From Buttiauxella warmboldiae (lineage in GTDB: Bacteria; Pseudomonadota; Gammaproteobacteria; Enterobacterales; Enterobacteriaceae): 45,754 bases of DNA. Of the stretch, positions 3,305 through 24,353 are shown one piece after another. The DNA lies in the NCBI RefSeq assembly GCF_003818135.1, contig NZ_RPOH01000002.1, forward strand, positions 1-45,754, given 5' to 3'. The first letter of the stretch is position 1. Each line of letters opens with the position of its first letter. Under the pieces are notes generated by a model that saw only the letters and a program-made list of their open reading frames with translations, had not been told where the DNA came from and did no database searches. Both the position numbers and the translations under genes were made by a program.

Positions 3305-4987
3305 ATGGCAATTCCAATACTCACCCCACAAGGGGCCGTTCGTTTCTGGCACCATATTCGGTTAGTGCCGCTGTTTAGTTCTATTCTGGGCGGGATCTTA
3401 GTTCTGTTCGCGTTGTGTGTCGGGCTGGCGAGCTATTTTTTGCTGCAAAGCGATAAAGCGTTGCAGGATGTCACCAACGAAATTCAGGTGCGCATTGGGC
3501 TTTCCGATAGCGCCACCGATCTGCGCAGCGCGCGGCTGAATATTATCCATGCGGGTGCCGCAGGGCGCGTGGCAGACATGGAGGATATGAAATTCAATAT
3601 CGCCGAAGCGGAAAGATTAATTAAGCAAGCCCAGGCCAGCTTCGATATTTATATGGCGCGGGCGGATAAGGTCGATGCGCTGGATAGCCAATTGCGCACA
3701 CGCTTTGATGATTATCTGACTAAAGGCATGGCGCCGATGATCAAATATGCCAAAAACGGCATGTTTGAGGCGATCATCAACCATGAAAATGAAGCCGCCC
3801 GCCAGCTGGATGCTGATTACAACAAGCTATCAGAGCAGGCGGCACAAATTCGTACCGAACGTGCCGTAGCGCTTCACACCGAGGCCCAGGCACGCTCGCA
3901 TTTAAGCGTACTGGTGATGGCGGGGGCTTTTGCTATTGCGTTGTTCCTGACTATTTTTACCTTTGTCTTTTTACGCCGCGTGGTGATTCAGCCGCTGCAA
4001 CAGGCGGCCACGCGTATCGAACATATTGCGCAGGGGGATTTAACGCTTGCCGCGCAATCATACGGCAACAGTGAAATCGGTAAACTTAACCTGAACTTGC
4101 AGGAGATGCAGGCCTCGCTGACCCAGACCGTTAGTGCAGTGCGTATGGGGGCCGAAGCGATTTATCAGGGCACCAGTGAGATTTCAGCCGGTAATACGGA
4201 TTTATCGTCGCGAACCGAACAGCAGGTGGCCGCGCTTGAAGAAACGGCTGCCAGCATGGAGCAGCTAACCGCGACCGTAAAACAAAACGCGGATAATGCC
4301 CATCACGCGACCCGGCTTGCGGAAGAAGCCTCGCATAAAGCCAGCGACGGCGGGCGCATTGTCTCGGGGGTAGTGAGCACCATGAATAATATCTCTTCGA
4401 GCTCGAAGAAAATTTCTGAGATAACCGCGGTGATTAACAGCATTGCCTTCCAGACCAATATCCTGGCGCTGAATGCGGCGGTGGAAGCGGCACGTGCGGG
4501 AGAGCAAGGGCGCGGGTTCGCAGTGGTAGCGACCGAAGTGCGCACGCTGGCGCAGCGCAGTGCGCAGGCGGCCAAAGAAATTGAGGGGCTGATTAGCGAA
4601 TCGGTCTCGCTGATTGACAGCGGCTCCAGTCAGGTAGCTCATGCCGGTGAAACCATGACCGGCATTGTCGATGCAGTACGACGCGTCAGCGATATTATGC
4701 AGGAAATCGCCGCCGCGTCCGACGAGCAAAGCCGTGGTATCCAGCAGGTCGGCATAGCTATTCACGAAATGGATAGCGTCACGCAACAAAATGCCTCGTT
4801 GGTTGAGGAGGCGACGGCTGCCGCGAGCTCTCTCGAAGAGCAGGCCGCAGGTTTAACCGCCGCGGTCGGCATTTTTCGACTAAACGCTCACCATCAGCAT
4901 ATTAGCGCTGAAAAAGCCACGCAGCAGGCATCCTCATCTGCGCCACGCGCAGCGGTTGACGAAGGCGATAACTGGGCAACTTTTTAG
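3305..4987 (+). CDS. Methyl-accepting chemotaxis protein
   Basis: A 560-residue transmembrane chemoreceptor of the Tsr/Tar type: N-terminal TM helix (about 22-42), periplasmic four-helix-bundle sensor (about 43-195), second TM helix (about 198-222), HAMP domain, then the methylation helices and the conserved cytoplasmic hairpin tip ([23 protein letters not shown]). The C-terminus is DNWATF, a one-residue variant of the CheR/CheB tether NWETF, so it should be a high-abundance-type receptor. The ligand is unknown. Its position directly after a DppA-like protein makes peptide sensing attractive, as for Tap with DppA in E. coli (inference). Confidence 0.93.
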
Positions 4988-22012: not shown

Positions 22013-22132
22013 GCAGGTGAATGCAACGTCAAGCGATGGGCGTTGCGCTCCATATTGTCTTACTTCCTTTTTTAGAATTACTGCATAGCACAATTGATTC
22101 GTACGAGCCGACTATTAGTCGGCTTTTTTTTT
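22013..22132 (+). ncRNA. fnrS: FnrS, anaerobically induced Hfq-binding sRNA
   Basis: The about 120-base sequence follows E. coli FnrS closely: GCAGGTGAATGCAACGTC at the 5' end, the GCGATGGGCGTTGCGC region, the CTTACTTCCTTTTTT single-stranded seed region, and a terminator (AGCCGACT-ATT-AGTCGGCT, T9) at 22106-22132. It is activated by FNR and represses mRNAs for aerobic enzymes (for example sodB, maeA, gpmA in E. coli). The location after zntB is conserved. Confidence 0.93.
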
Positions 22133-22488: not shown

Positions 22489-23409
22489 TTATTTGATTTC
22501 GATAACATCCAGCCGTTGTACCGGTATCTCGCTGTCGTCATCTTCTGGTTGCCAGCCCGCAGGCTGCATCGGCAACTCTTCACGGTCGAAGGCTAAATCG
22601 CCGCCATCAATGACTTCAGCGCCGTGTTGCAGGCCTTTGAAATCGAATAGCTCGGTGTCGCACAGATGCGACGGCACGACGTTCTGCATGGCGCTGAACA
22701 TTGTTTCGATGCGGCCAGGATAGCGCTTATCCCAGTCACGCAGCATCTCGCCAATAACCTGACGTTGCAGATTAGGCTGTGAACCGCATAAGTTACACGG
22801 AATAATCGGATACTCACGTGCGGTGGCAAAGCGCTCAATATCTTTTTCACGGCAGTAGGCCAGCGGGCGAATCACAAGATGCTTACCATCATCGCTCATC
22901 AATTTTGGCGGCATGCCTTTCAGCTTGCCACCGTAGAACATATTGAGGAACAGCGTCTGGAGGATATCGTCACGGTGATGGCCAAGCGCGATTTTGGTCG
23001 CCCCCAGCTCGGTCGCTGTACGGTAAAGAATGCCGCGGCGTAGGCGAGAGCACAGAGAGCAGGTGGTTTTACCCTCAGGGATCTTATCTTTAACGATTCC
23101 GTAAGTGTTCTCTTCGACAATTTTGTATTCAACGCCAATGCTTTCCAGATATGCCGGCAGAATATGCTCAGGGAAGCCCGGCTGTTTCTGATCGAGGTTG
23201 ACGGCGACCAGGCTGAAATTAATCGGCGCGCTCTGCTGCAAATTGCGCAGAATTTCCAGCATGGTATAGCTGTCTTTGCCACCGGACAGGCAGACCATAA
23301 TGCGGTCGCCTTCTTCAATCATATTGTAATCAGCGATCGCTTCACCTACGTTACGGCGCAGGCGTTTCTGTAATTTGTTCAGGTTATAAATTTCTTTTTG
23401 ACTGGTCAT
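22489..23409 (-). CDS. ttcA: tRNA 2-thiocytidine(32) synthetase TtcA
   Basis: A 306-residue PP-loop enzyme (E. coli 311) that thiolates C32 in certain tRNAs, using ATP and a [4Fe-4S] cluster. The PP-loop is SGGKDS at 42-47; cluster cysteines are C117 and C120 (CSLC) and C205 (PCNLC). The ribosome site is GAGAAA before the ATG. In E. coli K-12 the Rac prophage is integrated in ttcA; here ttcA is intact, and the space up to dbpA carries extra genes. Confidence 0.96.
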
Positions 23410-23572
23410 GGATTTCTCAGGCTAAACCAACACGCATAACGCGTAATACTGGCGTGTATGGTACGGATTGGCGCGACGAATACCAGCACGTTTTGCAGCG
23501 ATTTGCCATTGTGGGGCTGGCTGAATGACCAATGAAGCGGGCAAAAACATGACGGCGCTGGATTGTTAGTGA

Positions 23573-23601
23573 TTGCATGGGCAATTTCACTTATGTATTA
23601 T
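23573..23601 (+). promoter_or_regulatory. Stable-RNA-type sigma-70 promoter for the tRNA-like gene
   Basis: TTGCAT, exactly 17 bases, TATTAT, then GCGCCGCCGG as discriminator. A GC-rich discriminator starting GCGCC is typical of stringently controlled rRNA and tRNA promoters. Transcription would begin near 23608, about 60 bases before the tRNA 5' end. Confidence 0.7.
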
Positions 23602-23669
23602 GCGCCGCCGGTCTTTATCCCTGCTTGAAGTAAGCGATTGTAAGGGACATGCCCGGCGGTGTTACCAAA

Positions 23670-23743
23670 CCGCCACTAGCTCATCGGGAAGAGCGGCAAC
23701 AGCAGTGTTGTAGTACGGGGTTCGAGGCTCCGGTGGCGGACCA
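23670..23743 (+). tRNA. Atypical tRNA or tRNA-like RNA, anticodon undetermined
   Basis: The 74 bases fold as a cloverleaf. The acceptor stem is perfect over 7 bp (CCGCCAC/GTGGCGG), followed by T8 and A9. The D arm is GCTC/GAGC with loop ATCGGGAA (A14, G18, G19 present). The T arm is CGGGG/CTCCG with loop TTCGAGG (G53, T54, T55, C56, A58, C61 present). Discriminator is A73 and CCA is encoded. The anticodon arm is abnormal: GCAAC/GTTGT encloses only six bases (AGCAGT), and U33 is missing, so no normal anticodon can be assigned. C1-G72 with A73 recalls tRNA-Pro. It may be a regulatory tRNA-like RNA, a non-canonical tRNA, or a decaying copy. Confidence 0.68.
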
Positions 23744-23861
23744 AAACAACCATCTTAAAATGGTTCTCACTCTTCCATACGCTCTCTATCCTTCCTTAAA
23801 CAAATCTTTAGCCGATCGCTCTGGTTAAATATATTTGCGACAATAATTAAGCTAAATAAAT

Positions 23862-24062: not shown

Positions 24063-24353
24063 TTATTTAGCGCAGTAAACGCGAGCATCACGCGGGGTAT
24101 AAATACCAAACGTAACAAAGCTCAGTAAGCCGTTCACGAAAGTCTGTTGAACTTCCGTACGAACAACTTTATCTGCACCGCCACATACCGCAGCCGCATC
24201 AATAGTTTTGGTTTGGCCAATACCGCTAACAAAGAAGTGGTGCGTCGTGGTTTGCTGAGGTTTTTCAGCAATCTCTTTATTGATGGTGAAACGTTGCTGC
24301 GCGCAGCCAGATAAAACCACGGTAGCGATAACTGCTATCATTAACTTTTTCAT
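24063..24353 (-). CDS. Bor-family lipoprotein
   Basis: A 96-residue lipoprotein. Signal peptide with lipobox LSGC (C17), then the Bor/Iss core: HHFFVSGIGQTKTIDAA, CGGAD, QQTFVNGLLSFVTFGIYTP and a C-terminal ARVYC. It is closely similar to phage lambda Bor, an outer-membrane serum-resistance protein expressed from the lysogen. No other phage gene is present, so it is either a domesticated moron or a chromosomal homologue. It lies between ttcA, a prophage integration gene in E. coli, and dbpA. Confidence 0.92.
   Translation of the reverse strand: MKKLMIAVIATVVLSGCAQQRFTINKEIAEKPQQTTTHHFFVSGIGQTKTIDAAAVCGGADKVVRTEVQQTFVNGLLSFVTFGIYTPRDARVYCAK

Follow-up and report, generated by a model that had tools for sequence, protein, structure and literature searches.

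A tRNA-like gene of Buttiauxella warmboldiae, hereafter X, which occupies 74 bases (23670-23743, + strand) of the window, that is, of the whole stretch of 45,754 nucleotides analysed here, is probably a prophage-derived, non-decoding tRNA-like RNA that has been kept by selection and acts through its body. To judge from sequence comparisons, it is very likely that X is a working RNA with a job other than translation. Its origin, unforeseen in the preliminary description of this DNA, appears from homology to be a prophage tRNA family related to argN.

X is the sole tRNA-like call made by ARAGORN in the window ('tRNA-???'), and both its coordinates and its strand agree with those given in the preliminary description. 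The program draws an acceptor stem of 7 bp, a D stem of 4 bp, a T stem of 5 bp with one G.U pair, and an encoded CCA. The cloverleaf is also both the minimum-energy and the centroid structure of RNAfold (-32.3 kcal/mol, z = -2.66; 3 of 200 shuffles were equally stable), and the sequence carries U8, A14, G18 G19, T54 T55 C56 and A58 in what we take to be the usual tRNA position numbering; the complete arms, CCA end and invariant bases first noticed in the letters are thereby borne out. With stems of 7, 4, 5 and 5 bp, X has the cloverleaf and CCA end of a canonical elongator tRNA. What it lacks is the canonical anticodon loop of seven bases, together with U33 and any anticodon: the arm drawn by ARAGORN, identical to the one described earlier, is GCAAC-AGCAGT-GTTGT, with an outer G.U pair, a six-base loop and no anticodon, and the loops are of five or six bases in all eight orthologues. 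In the RNAfold structure the stem gains a further A-U pair, which leaves a four-base loop, GCAG. An Rfam search of region 23600-23850 gave no match at E <= 1, the tRNA model RF00005 thus missing X. Two other copies (L041 and L205) also fold as cloverleaves, with weaker z values (-1.88 and -1.00) and unexceptional stability (10 and 28 of 200 shuffles as stable), and neither argN nor a Lys-type member (L047) gave a cloverleaf at minimum energy. The parts of X are as follows.

23670..23743, + strand: X, putative non-decoding tRNA-like RNA gene (ARAGORN, RNAfold; 66 of 74 nt invariant in eight Buttiauxella)
23670..23676, + strand: acceptor stem 5′ strand CCGCCAC, partner 23733-23739; seven Watson-Crick pairs, the last co-varying in the family
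23679..23694, + strand: D arm GCTC-ATCGGGAA-GAGC (ARAGORN, RNAfold); invariant in eight genomes
23696..23700, + strand: anticodon-arm stem 5′ strand GCAAC (ARAGORN, RNAfold); last two bases differ among species
23701..23706, + strand: six-base loop AGCAGT, without U33 or anticodon; the variable part of X
23707..23711, + strand: anticodon-arm stem 3′ strand GTTGT (ARAGORN, RNAfold); invariant in eight genomes
23716..23732, + strand: T arm CGGGG-TTCGAGG-CTCCG; invariant in eight genomes
23733..23743, + strand: acceptor 3′ strand, A73 and encoded CCA; invariant in eight genomes

The gene order around X is ttcA (divergent from X), X, a Bor-family gene and dbpA, and the surroundings comprise four further features.

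22489..23409, - strand: ttcA, divergent neighbour and neutral yardstick (open frame; name taken from the preliminary description)
23573..23609, + strand: promoter-like block TTGCAT, 17-nt spacer, TATTAT, then GCGCCGCC; aligned in eight of eight Buttiauxella X loci
23610..23669, + strand: presumed 5′ leader of X, variable in length and sequence (25-60 nt in eight genomes)
24063..24353, - strand: Bor/Iss-family lipoprotein gene between X and dbpA; DNA about 70% identical to E. coli 'Bor family protein' and iss

A DNA search across 60 relatives returned matches in 11. X stands beside ttcA in eight of the 12 Buttiauxella genomes of that search, the window's included, whereas the other four (G008-G011) have ttcA but neither X nor the promoter-like block at its flank. 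Within the block, the first hexamer is TTGCAT at seven of the eight X loci and TTGCAG at one, and the second is TATTAT at five, TATCAT at two and TATGAT at one. A G+C-rich discriminator, which GCGCCGCC resembles, is a feature of stable-RNA promoters. A consensus promoter scan did not report the block, TTGCAT matching TTGACA at three of six positions, so that the promoter assignment rests on conservation and spacing. Six of the eight genomes have a tRNA-Gly(TCC) gene behind X (ARAGORN, alignment), and the window and B. agrestis have X but no tRNA-Gly there; X is therefore not merely a passenger of tRNA-Gly. Gene content shifts shortly past the CCA, the downstream flanks being mostly unalignable, and in at least two genomes (G006, G007) a PF00589 integrase domain is encoded some 0.8-0.9 kb downstream from the X-tRNA-Gly pair, given which the site may also be an island hotspot in Buttiauxella. 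Neither Q/lysis markers nor a neighbour tRNA were found at the window copy.

Three observations concern other parts of this genome. An FnrS-type sRNA (Rfam frnS, RF01796, 116.9 bits) lies beyond the 3′ end of ttcA at 22013-22127, + strand. Of 15 genomes compared, 14 have at their ttcA locus the sequence TATGGTACGGATT, which lies near the ttcA start in the window (23457-23469). In Escherichia, among others, an apparent integrase 3′ end, judged by eye, stands before this sequence, which may be an old phage attachment core. A second family member of 77 bases, with loop CATTTAA and A33, is present on contig C78 of the same genome (L263, 3042-3118, - strand), in surroundings that by eye include a TpsB-type transporter-like gene and an IS200-like transposase gene.

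Evidence for selection on X comes from the contrast between its body and its surroundings. In the eight Buttiauxella genomes the first 29 and the last 37 bases are identical, that is, 66 of 74 positions are invariant, and variation is limited to eight bases around the loop. This middle part occurs in five versions, ACAGCAGT, GCCGCAGT, ACCTCAGT, ACCACAGT (two genomes) and ATCATAG (three genomes), and the loops at the ttcA-linked locus are AGCAGT, CGCAGT, CTCAGT, CACAGT and CATAG. By comparison, 97 of 111 fourfold columns of ttcA are variable among the six Buttiauxella genomes with a full ttcA, pairs of genomes differing at 16-55% of these sites (median 46%), and the flanks of X are unalignable except for the promoter-like block and the G+C-rich stretch behind it. 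In a pseudogene all arms would change at the neutral rate; here none of the 66 body positions varies. Because these bases are invariant where ttcA fourfold sites are near saturation, decay of X is rejected, and action of selection on the X body is well supported by the alignments. The loop is demonstrably free to vary within Buttiauxella and between prophage copies. The suggestion of the preliminary description that selection kept the fold while decoding looked impossible is supported. Since the same body is found in several genera, part of the invariance could stem from recent horizontal spread.

The earlier remark on the lack of a tRNA here in E. coli is correct as regards the ttcA flank in two Escherichia genomes (L364, L367), but E. 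coli does have a relative of X, at yahM. Of 5426 complete E. coli genomes, 5119 carry at least 80% of the 100-bp segment that holds this relative, and 305 gave no match to it. Among 5123 matching records, 5107 have an identity of 99% or more with the query, as against 2020 of 5075 for the next 100 bp, which lie in the yahM frame and are not a strictly neutral yardstick. A DNA search of Escherichia found matches in 12 of 12 genomes: ten have one identical 81-base X, one (G425) has variants, and one (G393) only a distant argN-type copy. The ten identical copies are preceded by TTGACA-16-CATAAT (nine genomes) or TTGACA-15-CATATT (one genome); 91 of 169 promoter and leader columns are invariant among them, and 87 of 123 ttcA fourfold columns are variable in the same genomes. 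As the loop of the Escherichia X is invariant as well, the loop is not free everywhere.

No Rfam match was obtained for the E. coli yah copy (L041) at E <= 1, and the E. coli chromosome stretches L042, L043 and L044 have no RNA feature annotated on X. In the K-12 F128 record (L041) X lies at 4004-4084, and the annotated yahM frame (4074-4319) starts in its last 11 bases. It may be that yahM is a spurious gene, and that expression signals assigned to it stem partly from X. Passages of several papers treat yahM as an uncharacterised gene that is listed, promoter-mapped or differentially expressed (PMC7649339, PMC12389024, PMC5493296, PMC12132413). A protein reading was also considered, as an open frame in K-12 spans leader and X, and was rejected by eye because leader indels in other Escherichia break the frame. 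According to a passage of PMC10652928, the genome-reduced strain DGF-298 has none of a stretch of 125,568 bp found in W3110, in which both yahL and yahM lie; since this strain is viable without the region, X is not essential in the laboratory.

X belongs to a wider family. A pattern built on the T arm and the acceptor 3′ strand found at least 120 stretches in viral contigs and 64 in species genomes, and with other loci added 142 distinct family sequences were collected. Because the pattern itself selects intact T arms and acceptor 3′ strands, their conservation was judged only from the Buttiauxella and Escherichia alignments and from viral stretches chosen by their 5′ half. Of 61 such stretches, 49 are intact, ten have an altered T arm or 3′ acceptor strand and two are cut off. 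Two Clostridiales tRNA-Lys loci (L207, L219) were removed before the counts on 142 sequences and the body tree, and are still among the 203 loci surveyed below. Loops unfit for decoding were found in 112 of the 142 sequences, 83 being other than seven bases long and 29 having seven bases without U33; 25 are decoding-like, 22 of these with the Arg-type loops CTTCGAA, CTTCTAC, CTTCTAA or CTCCTAA, and five could not be parsed. The non-decoding members have about 74 different loops, an approximate count because the loops of L188, L213, L232, L269 and L272 are in a shifted register. When the 58-base body (X minus its anticodon arm) is considered, one identical body bears ten loops and another seven. 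A tree of these bodies calls for eight switches between decoding and non-decoding members, at least five of them forced, with most forks unresolved. Given these switches and the 25 decoding-like sequences, a role common to X and the decoding members is possible.

Several features of the family point to selection at the level of RNA structure. In an alignment of 50 sequences chosen from 101 distinct ones, 97.6% of stem cells are paired, as against 32-52% when the partner strand is slid. Compensatory change, which the preliminary description had suggested looking for, is seen at the last acceptor pair, C-G in 32 and U-A in 17 of the 50. Base 73 takes all four letters (A 56, T 39, C 12 and G 5 in 112 members), so it is unlikely that what matters is a single, fixed aminoacyl identity.

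Members sit in lambdoid prophages among normal tRNAs, and also at several chromosomal sites. Of the 203 loci, which are partly redundant, 88 have Q, holin, lysis or ydfR-type markers within 4 kb, 15 have ttcA, seven yah genes and 93 none of these, and a neighbour tRNA was called within 700 nt at 153. The 332 neighbour calls of ARAGORN are Met(cat) 120, Gly(tcc) 94, Thr(tgt) 65, Arg(tct) 42 and others 11; X at the same loci received 33 different names, as against the few anticodons of its neighbours. At prophage locus L042, which served as a control, three ordinary tRNAs scored 65-74 bits with Rfam, and X between them had no tRNA match at E <= 10. Chromosomal settings, in which frames were named by eye, include cytochrome bd-like and rcnR-like genes in Pseudocitrobacter, ydiY-like and thrS genes in Pluralibacter, and a LysR gene with a DsbD-like gene in Klebsiella. 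The search model R1 proved unspecific: all 392 genomes match at E <= 1e-6 among the matches listed, because ordinary tRNAs match too (many at 66.9 bits, with X-type places reaching 93 bits). One candidate, L293 (71.9 bits by R1), was rejected as X-type since it is a decoding Arg-type tRNA. None of 28 viral loci with ttcA had X by the model at E <= 1e-6.

Some variants deserve mention in their own right. The loop CCTTTAA, with C33, occurs at no fewer than 32 loci (L047 included), is frequent among the viral matches listed, and is annotated (L047, 4003-4079) or called as tRNA-Lys(UUU) despite C33. A side branch from Raoultella, Enterobacter, Kosakonia and Brenneria (L179, L182, L187, L201, L228) has loops parsed as 5-11 bases long, on a stem of the type TGCTT/AAGTA. 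One viral contig of 41,991 bases begins and ends exactly inside its own X loop (TA and AAT on either side of the break; L295 1-25, L339 4755-4787), which could reflect chance linearisation or a property of the site.

How might such an RNA work? We infer that X is transcribed, processed like a tRNA and not used in decoding. In Buttiauxella and Escherichia transcription would start at its own promoter, and in prophages X would be transcribed with the tRNA cluster. RNase P and 3′ trimming would then free a short, CCA-ended RNA of 74 bases in the window and 81 in Escherichia, which would adopt the L-shape of a tRNA. The ribosome would be unable to read it, because the loop is not of seven bases or is without U33, and the RNA would act via its acceptor stem, elbow and anticodon stem. 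Most likely it would serve as a decoy or competing ligand for some protein able to recognise tRNA bodies, whether a nuclease or toxin directed at tRNAs or an enzyme that handles them. The proposal draws on tRNA-cleaving defences, which passages of PMC10264068 and PMC11555353 present as a known pressure on phages; the decoy role is a guess, and we put it forward as a tentative one. It is tempting to speculate further, with as much reserve, that tRNA mimics are widespread and overlooked in Enterobacterales and their phages, including one in most E. coli beside yahM, that with their body kept and decoding abolished they protect genuine tRNAs against anti-phage nucleases or toxins that cleave tRNAs, and that hosts have co-opted them from prophages several times.

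Alternatively, X may be the tRNA-like element of a larger regulatory RNA, comparable to tRNAOther of Bacillus cereus, with leader and body regulating mRNAs and the tRNA part serving as a handle for stability or for a protein. Passages of PMC3399842 report tRNAOther within longer RNAs, and the partial conservation upstream of the Escherichia copies, given above, would fit such an arrangement. In Buttiauxella, however, the body is constant next to a leader of variable length and sequence, and the downstream flanks are mostly unalignable, which makes this explanation unlikely.

A conserved stem with a variable loop, the pattern seen in X, is typical of antisense and kissing-loop RNAs, and the loop might accordingly be a seed for which each copy has its own partner, hence the variability. 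Exact complements of the loops in 1-kb flanks number 23, whereas shuffling the loops between loci gave 13.2 on average and reached a value as high in 3 of 300 shuffles. These complements are nevertheless scattered, 13 of them are five-base matches from poorly parsed loops (L188, L213, L272), and no conserved partner site was found among the loop-complementary sites in these flanks. That one body bears ten loops also argues against a seed, and we regard this possibility as quite improbable.

Still less probable is a role at the DNA level, X being kept as the attachment site, or the scar, of integrases that target tRNA genes. The integrase domain downstream of X in G006 and G007 and the change of gene content soon after the CCA are in keeping with such a role. 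Yet hosts usually do not keep attachment sites base-perfect, as X is kept, and the promoter-like block is kept too. Furthermore, 59 of the 61 viral 5′ halves continue straight into the 3′ part and the other two end at contig ends, so that no element is seen inserted in the X loop and no split copy was found among these 61 stretches. The paired changes in the acceptor stem likewise point to RNA.

The two remaining explanations have very little probability. A decaying tRNA of a dead prophage, which the preliminary description had also entertained, could be suspected from the phage relatives with normal Arg anticodons (argN, TCG), the adjoining Bor-family gene and the ten damaged viral copies among 61, but the orthologues show no random decay in acceptor or T arms, not one of 66 body positions has changed in eight genomes with near-saturated fourfold sites, and the yahM-side copy is identical E. 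coli-wide. The idea that X is a tRNA of the ordinary or a frameshifting kind whose loop is unusual, or that a sequencing error hides a seven-base loop, finds some backing in the 25 of 142 members with seven-base U33 loops, but a six- or five-base loop recurs at the ttcA locus in eight of eight genomes, which excludes an error, and the five- and four-base loops found elsewhere could hardly present an anticodon.

As to the prior record, no description of the X family was found in the literature searched, which was mostly open-access and covered few subscription papers. Single members had already been annotated by depositors, as tRNA-OTHER/pseudo in Yersinia phage YeP1 and as tRNA-Lys in PhiR47_1. 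A passage of a preprint (PMC13192938) notes sequences resembling tRNAs close to prophage sRNAs and interprets them as remnants of insertions. It would be a considerable gap if E. coli, better studied than any other bacterium, had a conserved RNA gene that escapes the Rfam tRNA model. If X is indeed a selected, non-decoding tRNA-like RNA, it makes it possible to test what job a tRNA can do once decoding is removed and the rest kept, and it may partly explain why temperate phages carry tRNA clusters.

Among known systems, the closest relative by sequence is argN of Stx phages, a tRNA-Arg(UCG) gene in the order ileZ-argN-argO (phage Lahn2, AM072972), which is about 75% identical to X. Like the X family, argN has a CCGCCAT acceptor strand, a TTCGAG T loop, a site after Q and a neighbour tRNA with a CAT anticodon; unlike X, it keeps a normal loop (CTTCGAA), and the Rfam tRNA model gives it 53.6 bits, whereas the X copies scanned (window, L042, L041) are unmatched. 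By homology and by its site near Q and lysis genes with Met(CAT), Thr and Gly tRNAs, the X family fits the argN-type class of prophage tRNAs. A second system is tRNAOther of Bacillus cereus, which according to passages of PMC3399842 is likewise a tRNA-like gene beside a genomic island and is reported not to function in translation. X would qualify as a functional pseudo-tRNA of this type, being conserved and, as its loop suggests, non-decoding. The same source gives tRNAOther a Trp anticodon, of which X has none, and X differs further in occurring in Enterobacterales and their prophages with dozens of loop versions. Finally, phage tRNAs that resist the anticodon nucleases of the host resemble the X family in being phage-borne, in having altered anticodon loops and in lying in tRNA clusters, as described in passages of PMC10264068 and PMC11555353; the terms 'pseudo', 'decoy' and 'prophage' were looked for in PMC10264068 and not found. 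Those tRNAs are proposed in the same passages to keep decoding, their cleavage site being changed, whereas X has no anticodon, and since most members of its family have no usable one, X could not replace a cleaved tRNA. Because the anti-nuclease tRNAs still decode, X would represent a different answer to the same pressure.
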